A stretch of DNA of 64,000 nt. It comes from Hyalangium gracile. GTDB lineage: Bacteria; Myxococcota; Myxococcia; Myxococcales; Myxococcaceae. Both the position numbers and the translations under genes were made by a program. A model generated the notes under the pieces. The model was not told the origin of the DNA. It did no database searches and saw only the letters and a list, made by a program, of their open reading frames with translations. This document shows, piece after piece, positions 34,142 through 43,105 of this stretch. Within the stretch, counting starts at the first letter, position 1, and each line of letters begins with the position of its first letter. The stretch is from contig NZ_JAHXBG010000009.1 in NCBI RefSeq assembly GCF_020103725.1, positions 248,001-312,000 of the forward strand, given 5' to 3'.

Positions 34142-35122
34142 TCACAAGCAGAGGTCTCGGAGTGGTTCCTCGGGAGGTGCGCGACTCTCCATGAGGTCGA
34201 TGCAGCGATCCTGGTAGTAGGGTGGCGCCGGCAGATCACAGTAGGCATGGGGGTCCGAGGTAGGTTCGGACTGCTGGGCTCCCGCTGCATTGGAGCGGCG
34301 ATAGAAGCGAATGGCCTCGTCGATGTTGCCGGCCTCCTCGAACAGCTCTCCGCGAAGGCCCCAGCACATGGACTCCACAGAGGCCGGGTATTGATCGAGA
34401 AAGGCATCAAGCGCCGCAGCGGACTGGTCGCGCTGCCCGAGCGCCCGGTAGTAGCTGACCTGCACCCGAGCTTTCCGACAAGCTTCTTGTTCGGAGAGCG
34501 GCGTAGGCTCTTCCTGAAGAAGGGCACCCTCCGTCCGACGAACCGTCCCATGCCACGTCGCGTCGGTTGCACCGCTACGAGTATCCAGCCACGCAGTCAA
34601 GACGTACTCACCCACTGGGATAGGCTCCACGTCCTCCACGGCCATGAGAAGTGTCAAGCGCCCAGCAGGGTTCTTCTCGTCGAGCACGAGGGAGCCTGAT
34701 GAGGGACTGCCCGCGATTTTGAGCGGCCAGTCCTGGCGCACATCCGCCTGGCCACGAATGCGTCGGAGCACCTCCAGTTTGATGAACTGGTGCCACTCGC
34801 CCGACTTCGCGGCAATGGTAATCGGTGGGACAGGCTCGGCCCCGGATACATCCGGGTGGTAGACGCTGACCTCGATGACGAGAGGCCAACGACGGTAGAT
34901 CGCCTCGGAGAGATCGCCGTTGAGCTTGATCCCCACCGCGGGCCCAGGAGCAGGCTCAGCGAGGGTCCCCCTGGGGGGGACCGATTCAGGCGCGCGCGGA
35001 CGTGCCTCTGCGGAACGAGCCAATGGGGTTGCGAGTTCCTTCTCGGGGGAAGGTCCGGCGGCCTCCGCCATCGAAGCACAGCCTAGAAGGAGAGGCAGCC
35101 CGAAACGAAAGAGCGAGATCAT
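34142..35122 (-). CDS. exported protein of unknown function, coupled to a metalloprotease
   Basis: A 326-residue protein with signal MISLFRFGLPLLLGCASMAE (possible lipobox LLGC). I do not recognise a family. The middle is beta-rich; the last third has helical TPR-like repeats (QSAAALDAFLDQYPASVES, GELFEEAGNIDEAIRFYRR). Its start overlaps the protease gene stop by four bases. Base composition and codon use look less GC-rich than neighbours, as in the protease gene. A partner or inhibitor of the protease is possible. Confidence 0.6.
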   Translation of the reverse strand: MISLFRFGLPLLLGCASMAEAAGPSPEKELATPLARSAEARPRAPESVPPRGTLAEPAPGPAVGIKLNGDLSEAIYRRWPLVIEVSVYHPDVSGAEPVPPITIAAKSGEWHQFIKLEVLRRIRGQADVRQDWPLKIAGSPSSGSLVLDEKNPAGRLTLLMAVEDVEPIPVGEYVLTAWLDTRSGATDATWHGTVRRTEGALLQEEPTPLSEQEACRKARVQVSYYRALGQRDQSAAALDAFLDQYPASVESMCWGLRGELFEEAGNIDEAIRFYRRSNAAGAQQSEPTSDPHAYCDLPAPPYYQDRCIDLMESRAPPEEPLRDLCL

Positions 35123-37332
35123 GGGGCGTTCCGTGGGGGATGACCGTGGGCGTCATTGACGCAAACGTGGTGAACACAATCTCCCCGCTTGGGAGCCGCA
35201 TCCCCGTGCCGTGAGGTACGGACCGTCCCGTCCGGGTACAGCCCATCACTGTTGAAGGTCTTGCCCTTGCCGTCGGAGCAGAGCGTCGTACCGAGTGGCT
35301 CTGGCTGCAGCAGGAAGTACCGAACCGAGCGCTCACCAGAGCGAATGACGGCCCGGGCTGAGGCGTACCGCATGAAGCAGGTCTCATCGCCGCTGAACAG
35401 CCCACCATGCGCGGTCGAGACAATGACAGCGGGAAGTGAGTCGGGCAGTGTGAGCCCGAAGCCTGTCCCCTCCTGTTTGAAGGTGACCACGTCACCTGCT
35501 GGCCCGTTATCCATTCCGGGTACCTCAAGGAAGCGACCATCGGGCTGCTTCCGCCAGGCCACGTCCCTCCGTGCTCCCTCCCCATGATGGGGAATGTCAA
35601 CGGAGTGCCCAAGTTCATGGGCCACGGTGTTGGCAAGTTCGCGAGGAGGGATTTCGCGCGCGAGTTCAATGACGCCAGCGTGTTTCGGGGTGCTAGGCCC
35701 TCCTTGGGTTTGGGATCTCCTTCTTTCCTGGCTGGACCTTGTGAGCATGACGAGGTGCTGGTCGACACGATGTCTCCCACCATCATGGAGGGCGTTGAAG
35801 TTGGCGACTCGCGTTGTTGGATCGAAGTCCCCACTGCTGAAGTTGAAGCCCGCGTGGACTTGAAGTCTCGTAGCCCTCTTGAAGAGATTGATGCCCGCCA
35901 CTGCATCGCCCTCCAGTTCATTATAGAGGAAGTAGTCCACCGTCTCAGGATTGGTGGAGAACCAGCTTCCATCCGCAATAAAGCCCCGGTACTCCTCATA
36001 GAGGGTAAGACCATCGCCCGCGTGGCCGTCTCCTCCGCCGCCAGGCAGGCGTTCGCCGTCGTACGAGTCCGCCAGTGCCATGGCGCCGTTTTCTCTCTTC
36101 CACACATCCGCCACGAACGAGTCTGGCGCTCGCTTTGGGATGCGAAGCGGTAGCAAGTGGAAGGAGTCCCCCTCATCGCGCACCTTCGCTACAAGCAGTG
36201 TTCCATCAGCCATCTCGGCGATGGCGGTCACCTCGCCGTAGGCGCCGAAGTCGAACGACGACAGGTCCGCAGCAGCCTGCGTGTACTCGCCCGCTGGCGT
36301 CTCGACACGATCCTTGCTGACGAAGGTCAGCCCCAACGTCTCGTTGGGCTCCCGCTCGAACTGGATATCCTGGGGGCTTGCCTCCCCGTCTGACAGTGGC
36401 GAATTCATGGCCACCCCAGGGACCTTTGAAGAGCGTAGAACAAAGGAGATTCTCGCCGCCTTTTTTGGCAGGAACGGCCCAATCGGGATGACCAGCGCTC
36501 GAAGACGCAGCGTTGCCCCCGCGCGCATGGGCTGCGGCCCGGGAGCTACCTCCTTCGGGGCTCGAAGGAGCGAAGATCCGAGAGTTGTCACCCCCACGGG
36601 TGGCAGTTCATCAGCAGGCAGAGTGCCCACGAATGCCAGGGGACGCCACGCGTCATAGCCTTCCGCTTCAAGCAGGAGTTCCGCCTCTGAGTTCCTGGGC
36701 GCAAGATTCCACTGAACGACCCAGTCCGTGGAGTGCCCTGTCTCGTCATCCGTCGAGAAGGTCACGGTCTCACTCAACTTCAACCCCTCCGTGGGAAGAG
36801 ACACAAACAGCTTCTCCGCTGGTGGCGTCAGGCGCACGGAGGTGCCGGCCGGGATCTCCTGCCCATCGAGGGTGATGCTCCCCTCACAAGGAGCAAAAAC
36901 GTCGCTGAACGACAGCCTGTACTGGCCGGTAGCAGAAAACTCCAGGGTGGCCGCGAGACTTCCACTCCCAGAGCAACGCTCCCTCTCGACTTGGCTGCCA
37001 CTCTCCGTAGTGAGGGTCGATTGAAACCGGGCCTCGTGAAAGACTGGTGCAGGGCCAAGAGCGGATCGGAGAGGAGCGCGGTGCTCTAGCTCCACGATGC
37101 CCCAACTCCACATCGTGCGATCCCACGCCTCTGTCAGTCCCTCGAGGGACCGCTCACCTTTGCTGCTACTCCTGACCGAATACGTCCCTACCCACTGAGA
37201 GACACCAAGAAAGCGGCTGTTCATGTCCGGTGGCGGCCGAGCGCCCGCAGGCTCCGTCGGCTTACATGCCGAGGCCACGAGCACGATCCACACCACCACC
37301 CAGTTCCCGCTCCTTGTAAAGAGTGTGAGCAT
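35119..37332 (-). CDS. zinc metalloprotease-like lipoprotein (zincin)
   Basis: A 737-residue protein with lipoprotein signal ending SACKP. The C-terminal part has HELGHSVDIPHH at residues 572-583: His572, Glu573 and His576 form the HExxH core and His582 the third ligand of the HExxHxxxxxH pattern of metzincins, with Asp in place of the usual Gly. Before it, GDGHAGDGLTLYEEYRGF is a calcium-loop-like segment common in this protease group. The N-terminal 400 residues are beta-rich and unassigned. Composition is less GC-rich than the surroundings. It overlaps the next gene (ATGA). Confidence 0.75.
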   Translation of the reverse strand: MLTLFTRSGNWVVVWIVLVASACKPTEPAGARPPPDMNSRFLGVSQWVGTYSVRSSSKGERSLEGLTEAWDRTMWSWGIVELEHRAPLRSALGPAPVFHEARFQSTLTTESGSQVERERCSGSGSLAATLEFSATGQYRLSFSDVFAPCEGSITLDGQEIPAGTSVRLTPPAEKLFVSLPTEGLKLSETVTFSTDDETGHSTDWVVQWNLAPRNSEAELLLEAEGYDAWRPLAFVGTLPADELPPVGVTTLGSSLLRAPKEVAPGPQPMRAGATLRLRALVIPIGPFLPKKAARISFVLRSSKVPGVAMNSPLSDGEASPQDIQFEREPNETLGLTFVSKDRVETPAGEYTQAAADLSSFDFGAYGEVTAIAEMADGTLLVAKVRDEGDSFHLLPLRIPKRAPDSFVADVWKRENGAMALADSYDGERLPGGGGDGHAGDGLTLYEEYRGFIADGSWFSTNPETVDYFLYNELEGDAVAGINLFKRATRLQVHAGFNFSSGDFDPTTRVANFNALHDGGRHRVDQHLVMLTRSSQERRRSQTQGGPSTPKHAGVIELAREIPPRELANTVAHELGHSVDIPHHGEGARRDVAWRKQPDGRFLEVPGMDNGPAGDVVTFKQEGTGFGLTLPDSLPAVIVSTAHGGLFSGDETCFMRYASARAVIRSGERSVRYFLLQPEPLGTTLCSDGKGKTFNSDGLYPDGTVRTSRHGDAAPKRGDCVHHVCVNDAHGHPPRNAP

Positions 37333-37380: not shown

Positions 37381-38310
37381 TCACCCGAGTGACGACACCA
37401 CGAGTCGGGCCCGTTGCGCCGCCGGCCTGACGTGGGCGGTAGCCCCGGCGTTGAAGGCCAGGAAGTCCTCCTCCACCCCATCGCTGAAGATGACGCCCCC
37501 CGAGGGCATGCGGGACTCCAGCACCAGCTCCCGCTCGGCGGTGACGAAGCCGCTGATCAGGTCTGCCGAGGAGTGGCGGCTGACGAAGGGCTCACGCACC
37601 ACGAAGGCCAGCCGGGGGTCCTCCCAGCCCATCCGCCAGGTGCTCCCCGGCACCCCGCCCGTGGAGGAGGTGAGCCCTCGGGCCAGGGTGAAGACCGAGG
37701 AGAGCCAGCCGCTGGAGCCGGCCCCCGTGGAGACGATGACGCCGCTGGAGGACTGGGGCTCGGCTGTCTCTCCGTGTCGCAGCGTGTAGCGCGCGGACAC
37801 GTGCGTGCGCGCCCCGAGGAACAGCTCGTTGAAGGCCAGCAGCCGCTGCCCATCCGCCAGGCGCGCCTCGGCCAGCGTCACCTCGCGCATGCTCGCCTTG
37901 CCCTCCAGCGTCCGCCGCACCGCCGCCCGGGCCCCGTCCACCCGGAAGGGCAGCAGCACCCCGTCGAAGCGGGTCGGATCCGGGTTCACCCCCACCAGCG
38001 GCTGCCGGTCCACGTACTTGGCCACGTTGGCCACCAGCCCGTCCTGCCCCACCGCCACCACCAGCTCCTTGCCGCTGAAGAGGAAGGTGGGCACCAGCGA
38101 GCGGTCCACCTGCTGCACCGGCAGCCCGAACGCCAGGGCGCCGTGGAGCCCGTCCAGCGCCCGGCGATAGGTGTCGTCCTCGCGGGCGTAGTCCTCGAAG
38201 TCCTGCCCGGCGTGCTCCAGGTAGAAGCGCGCCTGGGCCCGGGTGTTCAGCCGCTCGATGAGCTCCGCCAGCCGCGTCTTGCGCGTGACGAGGACGATCT
38301 TCTCGTACAT
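37381..38310 (-). CDS. NAD kinase-like protein
   Basis: A 309-residue protein related to NAD kinases. The phosphate-binding GGDG motif reads VVAVGQDGLVANVAKYV, keeping the catalytic Asp but with Gln for Gly; the downstream NELFLGARTH (NE motif) and STGAGSSGWLSSVF (TGxxGSS/TGSTAY-like) also fit. The C-terminus has RLVVSSLG. Standard NAD kinases have about 270-300 residues. It follows an SPFH gene by seven bases, behind a strong palindrome. Activity on NAD is unproven given the altered motif. Confidence 0.75.
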   Translation of the reverse strand: MYEKIVLVTRKTRLAELIERLNTRAQARFYLEHAGQDFEDYAREDDTYRRALDGLHGALAFGLPVQQVDRSLVPTFLFSGKELVVAVGQDGLVANVAKYVDRQPLVGVNPDPTRFDGVLLPFRVDGARAAVRRTLEGKASMREVTLAEARLADGQRLLAFNELFLGARTHVSARYTLRHGETAEPQSSSGVIVSTGAGSSGWLSSVFTLARGLTSSTGGVPGSTWRMGWEDPRLAFVVREPFVSRHSSADLISGFVTAERELVLESRMPSGGVIFSDGVEEDFLAFNAGATAHVRPAAQRARLVVSSLG

Positions 38311-38317
38311 GGCGCCC

Positions 38318-39316
38318 TCACTTGTTGCCCCGGCCGCGCGGCGGCTCGGCGGACGGCTCGCGCTGCGAGGGGCCCAGCAGCCCGCTGAGCAGCTCCGGCG
38401 ACATGTTCAGCTCGCCGATCTTCTGCGCGTTCTCCGCCATCTCCCGGAAGGCCAGGGCGATGTTCAGCTTGGGGTCGCTCCCTCCGCCGTTGGCCGCCAG
38501 CAGCGTCTTCCAGTCCACGCCCTTGACGGGGTTGAGCACCTTCTCCAGCGCGTAGGCCCGCGCATCCGCCGCCTGGCGCTCGTTCTGCGTCCAGCGCTCC
38601 ATGAGCGCCGCGCGCTGCTCCTCCACGGCGATGTCCGCCGCCATCTGCGCCTCGCGGATCTGCCGGCGCTTCTCCTCCACCGCCAGCTCCGTGGACAGCT
38701 CGCTCTCCTTGATGCGGCGCTCCTGCTCCACGGCGGCGTTGCGGCGGGCGTAGATGGCCTCGTCCGCGCGGCGCTGCAGCCCCTCGCGCGCCTCGGCCTC
38801 CAGCGCCCGAGCCATCTCCGGCGTGGGCCGTACCGACAGGAGCGAGAAGCCCATCACCTCCACGCCCAGCAGGCGGATGGCCTCCGAGTCCGACAGCGCC
38901 CCGAGCACCTGCCCCTCCACCACGTCCGCGCGCCCCAGCACCTCGCGCAGCGCCATGCCCTGCACCACCGTGCGGGCGCGCACCTGCGCCACCTGCACCA
39001 GGCGCTCCTCCAGCTTCTCTGGATCGCTGGAGAGGTACCGCCCCGAAGCGTCGATCGAGTAGTCCAGCAGCGAGGCCAGCCGCTTGGGGTCCGCCACCCG
39101 GTAGGTGAGCTGCCCCTGCAGCGTCACCGCCTGGAAGTCCTGCGTCACCTCATTGAAGACGAAGGGCACGTCCGCGCTGGCCAGCGGCACCCCGACCAGC
39201 GTCGTCGTTGGAGCCCAGTACAGGAAGGAGAGCCCGGGGCCCTCCCGCCTCACCTTCCCGTCCTGGAACTGGATGACGTACGTCGTCGGCGCAGCCTTGA
39301 TGTAGCGGATGGGCAT
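38318..39316 (-). CDS. SPFH/band-7 (stomatin-like) protein
   Basis: A 332-residue protein: residues 1-180 form the SPFH domain (VPLASADVPFVFNEVTQDFQ, VQVAQVRARTVVQGMALREV), followed by a charged coiled coil with many Glu/Arg/Ala (about 185-260), then a flexible tail. No N-terminal membrane anchor is evident, unlike most prohibitins. ATG 39316 is chosen because AAAGGAG precedes it; the frame's earlier ATG at 39349 lies inside the palindrome. It probably scaffolds membrane microdomains; cotranscribed with the NAD-kinase-like gene. Confidence 0.85.
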   Translation of the reverse strand: MPIRYIKAAPTTYVIQFQDGKVRREGPGLSFLYWAPTTTLVGVPLASADVPFVFNEVTQDFQAVTLQGQLTYRVADPKRLASLLDYSIDASGRYLSSDPEKLEERLVQVAQVRARTVVQGMALREVLGRADVVEGQVLGALSDSEAIRLLGVEVMGFSLLSVRPTPEMARALEAEAREGLQRRADEAIYARRNAAVEQERRIKESELSTELAVEEKRRQIREAQMAADIAVEEQRAALMERWTQNERQAADARAYALEKVLNPVKGVDWKTLLAANGGGSDPKLNIALAFREMAENAQKIGELNMSPELLSGLLGPSQREPSAEPPRGRGNK

Positions 39317-39330
39317 GGCCCGCTCCTTTC

Positions 39331-39370
39331 CGTGTAACTTCGACACCAAGCTTAGTGTCGAATCTACACG
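39331..39370 (-). promoter_or_regulatory. 40-bp near-perfect palindrome upstream of the SPFH gene
   Basis: The arms are CGTGTA (39331-39336) with TACACG (39365-39370) and TTCGACAC (39339-39346) with GTGTCGAA (39355-39362); the centre holds AAGCTT (39348-39353). 36 of 40 positions are symmetric. On the minus strand a weak -35 TTGCAT (39372-39377) and -10 TAAGCT (39349-39354), 17 bases apart, overlap it. It looks like an operator for a dimeric or tetrameric repressor controlling SPFH and NAD-kinase-like genes. Confidence 0.7.
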
Positions 39371-39402: not shown

Positions 39403-40359
39403 CTACTCGAAGAGGACCTCGCGGCGCTCCCAGTTGGTGCCACCGCGCCCGTCGCGGACGACGACCCAGACGCTCACCCGCTCGGTCTTCTCGGCCGGCT
39501 CCCGCCAGGAGGCCTTGGGCCCGACGTTGTCGGGCGAAGGGTCTCTCGGGTCCTTCTGCCGCGTGAGGTTGCGCTGCCAGGAGCCCTTGTCGGTGAACCA
39601 GTAGAAGATGAGCCGCTCGCGCTGGAGCTCCTGCTCTCCGGTGATGCCCCGCGCCTCGTAGAACTGGGCCTCGGACTCGTCGAAGAGGGGCTCGATGTCG
39701 TGCTCGCACACCTTCACGAGGCTCTCGTCGGCCGCCTCCACCTCCTCCTTGTCCTCCTCCGGGCAGTCCCCGTACTTGAGCGTCCTCGGGGTGTCCGGGA
39801 GCCAGTCCTCGCCGTCCAGCGTGAGCCCCTTCAGCACCGGGTTCCGGTTGGGCTCCTGCCCCTCCGGCAGGACCGCCGTCACGGCGACGCTCTTCACGGC
39901 CGTCAGGGGGCCCTTGTCGGAGCTGACCTCGAGCTGGAGCTGGAGCTGCGGCGCGGGAACGTCCTCTCCGGCGGCCAGCACCCCGGCCACGTTCTCCGGC
40001 AGCGGGATGCTCTGGGAGACGGAGTTGATGGCCGCGCTGCCGCTCGTCTCCATGACGATGGTGTTGCTGTCGGTGCAGAGCTGGTCCTCGCCCTCCCCCG
40101 CCTCCGCGTTGGAGCGTGGCGGAAGGAGGCAGGACCACCAGCGCACCTCGGCGACGGCCAGCTGGTCCGCGGGGTCGGCGACCAGCGCGCGCGCCCGCAC
40201 CGAGTCGGGCTGCGAGGCCCCACTGGTCAGCTCCGGCGGATCCACCTGGATGGCGAGGATGCGGCGATCGACGACCTCGCTCGAGCGCTCGAAGTCATAG
40301 GTGCAGCCCGACAGCGCCAGCAGCCCACCGAGCGGAAGCATCATCAGACGGGCGGACAT
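39403..40359 (-). CDS. lipoprotein of unknown function, coupled to a TonB receptor
   Basis: A 318-residue protein with lipoprotein signal MSARLMMLPLGGLLALSGC (lipobox LSGC). The body is acidic, with Cys at DCPEEDKEEVE and VCEHDIEPL, and ends WVVVRDGRGGTNWERREVLF. I do not recognise the family; it resembles surface lipoproteins that pair with TonB receptors in myxobacteria. Its ATG overlaps the receptor stop (TGATG). A surface substrate-binding or accessory role is likely. Confidence 0.65.
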   Translation of the reverse strand: MSARLMMLPLGGLLALSGCTYDFERSSEVVDRRILAIQVDPPELTSGASQPDSVRARALVADPADQLAVAEVRWWSCLLPPRSNAEAGEGEDQLCTDSNTIVMETSGSAAINSVSQSIPLPENVAGVLAAGEDVPAPQLQLQLEVSSDKGPLTAVKSVAVTAVLPEGQEPNRNPVLKGLTLDGEDWLPDTPRTLKYGDCPEEDKEEVEAADESLVKVCEHDIEPLFDESEAQFYEARGITGEQELQRERLIFYWFTDKGSWQRNLTRQKDPRDPSPDNVGPKASWREPAEKTERVSVWVVVRDGRGGTNWERREVLFE

Positions 40360-43013
40360 CAGAACTCTCCCTTGACGCCAAAGGTGGGAAGGAACGGGAG
40401 CCCCCGGAGCGGAGCGTTCTCGCGGTAGCGGTAGTCCCAGAGCGTCGCCTCCGGGTTCGAGGCGTTGTAGACATTCTGGATGTCCAGGTAGGCCGACAGC
40501 CTCCAGCGCTCGAACGTCCAGAGGCGCTCGGCGCGGAGATCCAACTGGTGGAAGGTGGCGCCTCGCGCGGAGCCCGGCGCTCCCTCCAGCGGGAAGAACC
40601 GGCCGGTGTCCGCGTTGAAGGTGCCCCCCGTGATGGGCGTCTCCGGCCGGCCCGAGGTGAGGCGGAAGCGCGCTCCCAGCTCCCAGCCGTTGGCCAGCTT
40701 GTAGGAGCCCACCACCGTGAGGATGTGGGACTGGTCGAACTCGACCGGGACGAAGGCCTCCACGTCCTCGTCGAACTGCACGGAGCGCGAGAGCGTGTAG
40801 GCCACCCATCCATAGAAGCGCTCGGTGAGCTCGTGCTTGAGCAGCACCTCGACACCGTAGGCGCGACCACGGCCGTCATTGTTGTAGACCTCGGGCTCGC
40901 GCTTGCCGTCGCGCTCCACGAAGTCCTCGGACTCGACGACGAGCTGATCGCGCCAGTTGTAGAAGCCCTGGAGGTCCAGGAGCACCGCGTCGGTGAGCTT
41001 CCACTCGATGCCTCCGGCGGTCTGCCGGCTGCGCAGCAGCCCGAGCTCCGTGTTGCCGAACGTGGGGGCGATCTCCCCCGGCTGCGGGGCCTGTCGGAAG
41101 AGGCCCACCGCCGCCTTCGCGGTGAGCACGTCGTTCACCGCGTAGCGCGTCGCGAGCCGAGGCTCGAGGGAGGGACGGAACCCGCCGGGGAGCTGGTAGC
41201 CCTCGAACCGGACGCCGGGGACGATCTTCAGCGCCTCGATGGGCGACCAGACCGCCTCCGCGTAGGCCGCGTAGGTGGAGATGTTCACGTCCTGGTCGAT
41301 GACGAGGGGAGCAGGCGGCTCGGTGTCCTCCGGCCGGGCCACCCCCGGGAACTCGAAGCCGATCGAGTAGTAGTTCGCGTTGAGGTCGATGCCCGTCTCG
41401 AAGGTGAGCCCCTTGATGAGCTCCTTCTCGGCCGACCCGCGCACGTTCACGTCCCGCGACGTGATGTCTCCCTTGAACTGATCTCCGATGCGGAAGTTGA
41501 AGATGGTCAGGCCCACCGTCGGCGCCAGGCCCACCCGCCAGCCGGAGTCGGTCCGCCTGTCCCAGGAGAAGCGGAACCGGTGGAACGCCTGGAGCGTGTC
41601 CAGCGAGAAGGGCTGCGTCTCCTCCGAGCCGCTCTGCGAGAGCTCCAGCAGGTCGCTCGAGCCGAACGCCACGAACCCGAGCTGGTCCTTGCCGAGCTTC
41701 AAGTCGTAGCGCGCCTGGTAGTCCCAGTAGTACGGCGAGGCCACCGTCGAGGCCGCGCCGGGCTCGCGGACCGCCTCCAGGATGGGCGGCAGCAGCACGT
41801 CGATGTAGCTGCGCCGCGCGGAGAGCGCGAGCGAGCCGTAGTTCTTCTTCGTGCTCAGCGGCGACTCGACGTAGAAGCCCGAGTCCAGCAGGTCGATGTC
41901 CACCTGGCCGTGCAGGCGCTTTGGCTCGGGCGGGCGCGTGCCCACGTCCACGATACCCGCGATGGCTCGCCCGTACTTCGCGCCATAGGCCCCCGGGAAG
42001 AAGTCGATCCGGTCGATGAAGGACGCATTCACGACCGAGGGCCCACCCGCGAAGTGGTAGAGCAGCGGGATGGGCACCCCGTCGATCATCACCTGGGTGT
42101 CCTGCGGCTGGGCGCCGCGCACCAGCAGGGCCCCCGAGATGTAGGGGGCTCGCGCCATGCCGGGCATGTTCTGCAGCACGCGCAGCGGGTCGCCGAAGGT
42201 GCCCGGGACGCTCTGCACCTCCTGCTTCTGGAGCGTGCGCCGCGCCACCTCCTTCTTCTCACGAGCGCCCACCACCACCGTCTCGAAGCCGTTCTCGATC
42301 TTCTTCCAGATGTACGCGGTGAGGTCGGTCACCTCGCCCTCGCGCACCTCCTCGATGGTGTAGAACTTCTTGTGGCCCGGCTCGGAGATCTCCACCTTGA
42401 TGCGCCCGGGCGTCACGCCGCGGATCTCGAAGGAGCCGTCCTCACCTGTCTCCGCGGTGAGCCCCTGCTCGGGCAGGAACACCGTGGCGTTGGCGACGGG
42501 ATCTCTCGTGCCGCGCTGGAGCACCCGGCCGCGGAAGTTGATGGGCTTCTCGACCACGGCTTCCGGCGGCGGCTCCGGCGGCGGCTTGGGGACGAAGTGG
42601 TAGACGTACTCGATGCGGACCGGCGCGGGCTTGTGGTCCACCTCGGCCGGAGAGAACTCCAGTTGCAGCACGGCCTCGCGCGCCGCCGCGTCGAACTCGG
42701 GCCCCGCCGAGCGCGTCACCTCGGCCTGAATCACCTTGCCCGTCTCGTCGATGTCGATGAAGAAGGCCACCTCCGCCGACTCGTTGCGGGCGAGCGCCTC
42801 GGGCGGATAGGTGGCCTCGACGAACCTGAGCAGCTCGGGTGCCTTGGTGAGCTGGGGCGCGGGGGGTGGCACTCCACCGTCCGTCGGCCCCCGCTGCAGC
42901 CCGGCGCCTTCATAGGCGCTCGCGCTTCCAGCCAGCAGCGTACAGGCCAGGAGGAGAACACACGCCGCGCGTCCCCGTTCGAAGGAGCCAGGACGACGGG
43001 AATGGATGAGCAT
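40359..43013 (-). CDS. TonB-dependent receptor fused to a TonB C-terminal-like domain
   Basis: An 884-residue outer-membrane protein. Order: signal peptide (MLIHSRRPGSFERGRAACVL to GSASA), a TonB C-terminal-like domain at about 58-142 (FVEATYPPEALARNESAEVA to VRIEYVYHFVP), a Pro linker, a carboxypeptidase-regulatory-like domain (INFRGRVLQRGTRDPVANAT), then plug (LLVRGAQPQDTQVMIDGVPI) and barrel to the end in GEF. ATG 43013 starts the signal peptide; the open frame to 43070 would add 19 unlikely residues. The coupled lipoprotein follows. The substrate is unknown. Confidence 0.8.
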   Translation of the reverse strand: MLIHSRRPGSFERGRAACVLLLACTLLAGSASAYEGAGLQRGPTDGGVPPPAPQLTKAPELLRFVEATYPPEALARNESAEVAFFIDIDETGKVIQAEVTRSAGPEFDAAAREAVLQLEFSPAEVDHKPAPVRIEYVYHFVPKPPPEPPPEAVVEKPINFRGRVLQRGTRDPVANATVFLPEQGLTAETGEDGSFEIRGVTPGRIKVEISEPGHKKFYTIEEVREGEVTDLTAYIWKKIENGFETVVVGAREKKEVARRTLQKQEVQSVPGTFGDPLRVLQNMPGMARAPYISGALLVRGAQPQDTQVMIDGVPIPLLYHFAGGPSVVNASFIDRIDFFPGAYGAKYGRAIAGIVDVGTRPPEPKRLHGQVDIDLLDSGFYVESPLSTKKNYGSLALSARRSYIDVLLPPILEAVREPGAASTVASPYYWDYQARYDLKLGKDQLGFVAFGSSDLLELSQSGSEETQPFSLDTLQAFHRFRFSWDRRTDSGWRVGLAPTVGLTIFNFRIGDQFKGDITSRDVNVRGSAEKELIKGLTFETGIDLNANYYSIGFEFPGVARPEDTEPPAPLVIDQDVNISTYAAYAEAVWSPIEALKIVPGVRFEGYQLPGGFRPSLEPRLATRYAVNDVLTAKAAVGLFRQAPQPGEIAPTFGNTELGLLRSRQTAGGIEWKLTDAVLLDLQGFYNWRDQLVVESEDFVERDGKREPEVYNNDGRGRAYGVEVLLKHELTERFYGWVAYTLSRSVQFDEDVEAFVPVEFDQSHILTVVGSYKLANGWELGARFRLTSGRPETPITGGTFNADTGRFFPLEGAPGSARGATFHQLDLRAERLWTFERWRLSAYLDIQNVYNASNPEATLWDYRYRENAPLRGLPFLPTFGVKGEF

Positions 43014-43105
43014 GGTCAGAGAGGGTGCTCTTACAACCTGATGAGCAATGGCCGGCCCAGGGGCCCGCATGCTTGTCCAGGGGTTTTCCTCCCGTCAAGC
43101 GCCGT

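Follow-up and report, generated by a model that had tools for sequence, protein, structure and literature searches.

A predicted tandem NrtR operator in the promoter of an SPFH-NADK2-like operon of Hyalangium gracile

The SPFH and NADK2-like genes and their promoter

In the window, i.e. the whole 64-kb stretch of Hyalangium gracile DNA that was analysed, two minus-strand genes follow each other closely. The first (38318..39316, ATG start at 39316) encodes a 332-aa SPFH/Band 7 protein matching Band_7 (PF01145, 7.2e-19). The first-pass annotation had called it a membrane scaffold. Its SPFH domain is genuine, but the protein shows no transmembrane-like stretch, so that this description is unproven. 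The second gene (37381..38310), placed 7 nt past the SPFH stop, encodes a 309-aa NADK2-like protein (NCBIfam NAD kinase, 7e-4; profile search against NADK2, 5.5e-17). Its AF2 model (pLDDT 93.6) matches human mitochondrial NADK2 with a Z score of 27.5 over 290 residues. In agreement with the profile search, NADK2 structures scored Z 26-27.5, against Z 20-22 for other NAD kinases. The predicted NADK2 fold (Z 27) confirms the NAD-kinase-like identity proposed earlier.

The alignment of NADK-like proteins shows no variation in the motifs G-x-D-G, N[E/D] and TG-G, while the second Gly of GGDG is replaced by Gln or Pro. Relative to human NADK2 (7r4j/7n29), the fold match covers the whole length, the catalytic Asp of GGDG is kept (GQDG) and so are N[E/D] and TG-G; the differences are Gln at the second Gly (Pro in genome G110), and that this predicted enzyme is bacterial and SPFH-linked. 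With Gln or Pro at this position, the protein is still likely, as judged from its motifs, to have kinase activity. Two other minus-strand reading frames of the window were recorded: one at 40359-43070 combines in a single ORF a TonB C-terminal domain, a carboxypeptidase-regulatory-like domain and a TonB-dependent receptor barrel, and a 737-aa ORF at 35119-37332 has a HELGH zinc-protease-like motif and no Pfam match.

Between the stop of an upstream lipoprotein-like gene (39403) and the SPFH ATG, where all genes are on the minus strand, lies the palindrome reported by the first-pass annotation, at 39331-39370. It reads CGTGTAACTTCGACACCAAG|CTTAGTGTCGAATCTACACG, split at its centre. It is an inverted repeat of 20-nt arms without gap, 85% complementary (17/20 pairs), which makes 34 symmetric positions out of 40, one pair fewer than the 36 counted before. 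No other 40-bp palindrome of the window is better (the runner-up has 15/20), and when the window was simulated 60 times with an order-2 Markov model, palindromes of at least 17/20 occurred 0.03 times per 64 kb.

The palindrome overlaps a promoter, as had been suggested. A -35-like TTGCAT (39377-39372) is separated by 17 nt from a -10-like TAAGCT (39354-39349), and a Shine-Dalgarno-like GGAAAGGAG (39323..39331, minus strand) begins with a G that is also the last base of the palindrome. A consensus promoter scan gave 0 hits, the TTGCAT/TAAGCT pair being too weak for it, yet the pair is kept in all close orthologues. The minus-strand order is TTGCAT-TC-GTGTAGATTCGACAC-TAAGCTTG-GTGTCGAAGTTACAC-GGAAAGGAG-CGGGCC-ATG. 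It contains two 15-bp sites, each a palindrome of its own, with half-sites GTGT and ACAC and 7 bp between them (GTGT-N7-ACAC). Site 1, GTGTAGATTCGACAC (39355..39369, minus strand), falls within the -35/-10 spacer; site 2, GTGTCGAAGTTACAC (39332..39346, minus strand), is immediately 3' of the -10, its centre 23 bp from that of site 1. The HindIII-like AAGCTT at the centre of the palindrome, pointed out previously, is largely the -10 element and carries no meaning by itself.

Conservation of the two sites within the family

The first-pass reading was made to depend on conservation of the palindrome upstream of orthologous SPFH genes, and it withstood this test. We looked for the SPFH orthologue in 96 family genomes and read the upstream region in 70 cases. 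Both GTGT-N7-ACAC sites were perfect in 55 of them, all close orthologues, and the other 15 came from diverged, distant genera. These 15 mostly carry GAGTC-N5-GACTC, which in the g26 genus occurs twice, at a distance of about 32 bp (three turns). In the 55 promoters, the half-sites and the TTG of the -35 never vary, the -10 region shows strong conservation (several relatives read TATAAT or TATATT), and the 7-nt spacers are nearly free. The gap between the two sites is 7 bp in 51 promoters and 8 bp in 4. Invariant half-sites and free spacers indicate that the 40-bp palindrome is in fact a pair of adjacent palindromes whose centres are 22-23 bp, or two helical turns, apart. What had been described as nested arm pairs are thus tandem neighbours, in which the half-sites are conserved and the spacer matches of the window copy are not. 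The long unbroken arms of the H. gracile copy are an accident of its spacers. This also explains why a search with the arms TTCGACAC/GTGTCGAA and an 8-nt gap returned the site alone in the 11.7-Mb genome, even at 2 mismatches: TTC and GAA fall in the variable spacers. Taken together, the inverted-repeat search, the simulations and the orthologue comparison lead us to read 39331..39370 (minus strand) as two tandem predicted operators of NrtR type.

The same comparison bears on whether the palindrome acts as RNA, as a 5' leader hairpin of the SPFH mRNA that would control translation or RNA stability or sense a ligand. The minus-strand RNA does fold to -37 kcal/mol (z -3.5), its hairpin ends beside the Shine-Dalgarno, and two asymmetric positions become G-U pairs. 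However, among the 55 promoters the spacers that should extend the stem are not paired above shuffles (of 7 columns, 5 pair no more often than by chance and one clearly more often), the -10 element would fall in the loop, some promoters have a single site, and GAGT lineages place their two sites 32 bp apart rather than 22. An Rfam search gave no family over threshold and one sub-threshold miRNA chance match. We consider a leader hairpin very unlikely. An intrinsic terminator of the lipoprotein-like gene, for which a strong hairpin inside a short intergenic gap would speak, is more improbable still: there is no T-run, no terminator-like site was found, and the site stays beside SPFH though the upstream sequence differs among genera.

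Look-alike sites of other regulators were also considered. MrpC sites are GTGTC-N8-GACAC and the NrdR box is ACAC-N8-GTGT. The host is a myxobacterium, and the inner arms of the window copy happen to read ACAC-N8-GTGT; but 51 of the 55 orthologues have an inner spacing of 7 rather than 8, so that ACAC-N8-GTGT is not the conserved unit, and GTGTC-N8-GACAC was not found in the 64-kb window. Moreover, the predicted targets described below are NAD and ADP-ribose genes and nrtR. Control by MrpC or NrdR is thus highly improbable.

The SPFH-NADK2 module across phyla

With an alignment of the NADK-like protein, at least 505 relatives were retrieved from GTDB genomes, and the best 80 were used as loci. 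They span some ten phyla, among which Myxococcota, Acidobacteria, Planctomycetota, Chloroflexi, Elusimicrobia and Obscuribacterales. An SPFH gene lies directly 5' of the NADK2-like gene, on the same strand, in all 80 loci (best 80 of at least 505): the pairing, first noted as unusual, is a conserved module.

We then looked at the 260 nt preceding SPFH in these 80 loci, the best of at least 505. Two or more GTGT-N7-ACAC sites were present in 42, one site in 8, and GAGT-N7-ACTC in 9, while in 1392 other 260-nt blocks of the same loci a GTGT site occurred 3 times. The GTGT site is absent from 30 of the 80 promoters; 9 of these have the GAGT form, and about 21 are unexplained. The tandem score was 16/16 in 38 of the 80 loci, against a coding-control maximum of 11/16, and the TTGNNN-17-(-10) spacing was exact in 36 of these 38. 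The L271 promoter, for example, reads TTGACATAGTGTCATATCAACACTATAATAGTGTCATAGATACAC.

In 11 of the 80 operons (again the best of at least 505), nrtR is the third gene, directly after NADK. The double site is present in 10 of these 11, the exception being L234, which has no GTGT site, and several have near-perfect TTGACA and TATAAT hexamers. In genomes G087 and G110 the operon is NrtR-SPFH-NADK, with nrtR first. In a Gemmatimonadetes MAG (L267), the two tandem sites upstream of SPFH form a near-perfect full palindrome, as in the window.

The regulator

The regulator was reached through its motif, by searching 92 genomes for the symmetric site TCGTGT-N7-ACACGA. This led to conserved promoters of genes for PARG (PF10021/TIGR02452), NADAR, PP2C and a Nudix-winged-helix protein. 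The latter is NrtR, with an N-terminal Nudix domain (PF00293, 4.6e-24) and PF21906/NrtR_WHD (about 2.7e-30 to 2.8e-30); it matches the NCBIfam model "ADPR responsive transcriptional repressor" at 4.6e-52, under the strict cut-off of the model. The window's own genome encodes one NrtR (G000:C20:116020-116706, helix DKRNFRK), away from the SPFH-NADK2 operon. Its promoter, TTGACTTGGTGTTATTTCGACACTATGTTGGTGTCGAAGGGACACGGA, carries the tandem operator TTGACTTGGTGTTATTTCGACACTATGTTGGTGTCGAAGGGACAC and is almost identical to the SPFH promoter; in this genome nrtR is thus predicted to be autoregulated by the tandem operator before it. Autoregulation is not universal: at distant loci (L143-L157), nrtR has no operator next to it.

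The best PDB match of this NrtR is BtAraR (1.3e-58), an NrtR-family repressor of Bacteroides (BT0354; 5bs6/5dd4/5ddg/5deq) crystallised on GCAAAAGTGTTACTTTTACACCCATGC, i.e. GTGT-N7-ACAC (PMC4666351). The base contacts K179, R180, N181 and K184, which "define GTGT" (PMC4666351), have identical equivalents in the DKRNFRK helix, and wing residue R205 is kept, K204 being His. The two systems share the half-sites and spacing, the contact residues, and tandem sites at a target promoter. They differ in that BtAraR controls arabinose genes and binds L-arabinose (PMC4666351), whereas the H. gracile targets are NAD and ADP-ribose genes, and the H. gracile protein lacks the AraR-specific pocket residues and has what looks like a complete Nudix signature. 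The AraR-specific Phe36, Leu67 and Gly89 are replaced by Leu, Glu and Arg, respectively, and SoNrtR has at the position of Gly89 an Arg98 that contacts ADP-ribose (PMC4666351). The arabinose-contacting R34, R86 and H131 are found in this NrtR as well; according to the same study, SoNrtR, which binds ADP-ribose, largely shares them (PMC4666351). As read from the BtAraR alignment, the signature GX5EX7REUXEEXGU is complete, which suggests that this NrtR may also hydrolyse its ligand. The myxobacterial NrtR at L140:4021-4710 has, unlike most described NrtRs, a complete Nudix box, and may be both repressor and hydrolase.

Predicted targets

A scan for tandem sites in 12 genomes gave 1-3 places in each, with one chance match in controls. 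The third tandem site of the own genome stands before a nicotinamidase-like gene, 3.6 kb downstream of nrtR (a call based on a weak isochorismatase match, below the Pfam cut-off). The PARG gene of the same genome (C2) has a single site a little over 50 bp upstream, and in relatives the site is found before NADAR and PARG genes. With sites before the nicotinamidase-like gene, the NADK2-like operon and PARG, NrtR is predicted to regulate genes of NAD metabolism. Two further single sites of the own genome may be due to chance, one at C5:191084 and one before a phage-like gene, terminase small-subunit-like by eye (L079:1501-2095, G000:C32:3462).

Proposed mechanism

The palindrome is thus very probably, on the basis of sequence comparison, a double operator of the genome's own NrtR, which would repress the SPFH-NADK2 operon until a NAD breakdown product, most likely ADP-ribose, releases it. 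The sequences themselves show the sites with their conservation and placement, the similar autoregulatory promoter of nrtR, the operon linkage of nrtR in other genomes and the matching DNA-contact residues; from these we infer that NrtR binds and represses here, which ligand frees it and what SPFH-NADK2 does in the cell. Two NrtR dimers would sit on the tandem GTGT-N7-ACAC sites, 22-23 bp apart and on one face of the DNA, the first over the -35/-10 spacer and the second just downstream of the -10, so that RNA polymerase could not start the operon. The first-pass proposal of a repressor binding as two dimers over this promoter finds support in the two conserved tandem dimer sites. Binding of the NAD breakdown product to the Nudix domain would release the repressor, and switch on SPFH-NADK2 together with nrtR-PP2C, the nicotinamidase-like gene and the PARG gene.

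As to the ligand, ADP-ribose is, from the pocket and the targets, the probable one. The same operator and NrtR-family protein could instead respond to another inducer (NAD, a pentose or another nucleotide), and the operon would then answer a different signal. The closest solved relative, BtAraR, responds to L-arabinose, a Corynebacterium NrtR binds NAD (PMC4666351), and R34, R86 and H131 are there to contact arabinose; but the AraR-specific pocket residues are missing, the Arg at the Gly89 position matches Arg98 of SoNrtR, and the targets are NAD and ADP-ribose enzymes. We regard another inducer as possible, and rather unlikely.

A role of the SPFH-NADK module in stress or conflict is possible, by analogy between the G050 operon and predicted anti-ADP-ribosylation systems (PMC9503650). 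This operon (L141:3426-7510, G050:C30) consists of NrtR, a NADAR/Macro fusion, DUF4291, an ADP-ribosylglycohydrolase and SPFH as last gene. A bolder and tentative proposal is that SPFH and the NADK2-like enzyme form a widespread stress or conflict module, switched on by ADP-ribose via NrtR. Upon NAD cleavage or ADP-ribosylation, an SPFH assembly might carry a NADK2-type enzyme that protects or converts the remaining NAD, beside PARG and NADAR stripping ADP-ribose.

Relation to known systems

The NrtRs of NAD metabolism, SoNrtR of Shewanella (3gz5/3gz6) and MsNrtR of Mycobacterium (PMC6800001), share with the present system the Nudix and NrtR_WHD domains, autoregulation through a palindrome, and NAD-related targets. 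MsNrtR sites likewise have N7 between half-sites, GTTTTCGA-N7-TCGAAAAC, of a sequence that differs from GTGT/ACAC (PMC6800001). Targets of the H. gracile type include SPFH, NADK2-like, PARG and NADAR genes, not nadABC. The ARG-centred anti-ADP-ribosylation systems predicted by comparative genomics (PMC9503650) associate a Nudix-HTH regulator with NADAR, Macro and ADP-ribosylglycohydrolase genes, as in G050, whereas most loci here are SPFH-NADK alone, with or without NrtR; the text of that study mentions no SPFH, stomatin, flotillin or NAD kinase. SPFH-NfeD operons (PMC2636767) are also conserved two-gene SPFH operons, but the partner is NfeD, not NADK, and the word "kinase" does not occur in the text.

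The literature searched gave no match for NrtR with SPFH, for NrtR with NAD kinase and regulon, or for SPFH with NAD kinase and operon; the founding NrtR papers (Rodionov 2008, Huang 2009) may already mention SPFH targets. Operator and regulator are thus of known kinds, and NrtR control of a widespread SPFH-NADK2 module appears undescribed in the literature searched. The orphan palindrome can now be tested as a switch whose regulator, half-sites, helix residues and targets are named, and a two-gene module found in many phyla becomes tied to NAD/ADP-ribose sensing. Little is understood of SPFH proteins in bacteria, and NADK2 of humans is a mitochondrial enzyme, so that the regulated pair offers a concrete entry to both.

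Operator variants

In genera whose NrtR helix reads DPGNFRR, GAGT-N7-ACTC is found at SPFH and nicotinate-phosphoribosyltransferase-like promoters. The link between this helix and the GAGT sites is indirect: they occur in the same genomes, and in three of these the sites are 18-20 kb from nrtR. With its matching changes in the helix, the natural split between GTGT and GAGT provides a ready example of repressor-operator co-evolution. In five loci (L190, L198 and L201 of genus g4, L188 and L202), GAGTC-N5-GACTC precedes nicotinate-phosphoribosyltransferase-like genes and also a 2OG-Fe(II) oxygenase gene that has an ornithine-cyclodeaminase-like gene after it. Finally, the NrtR-SPFH-NADK2-like operon of G087 (L142:1-3828, G087:C110) has near 991-1034 a palindrome with 21-nt perfect arms, TTTTATGCGCCATGCATATAA-CC-TTATATGCATGGCGCATAAAA, over the NrtR start; with the helix NKDSFRR in its NrtR, it represents a third class of operator.
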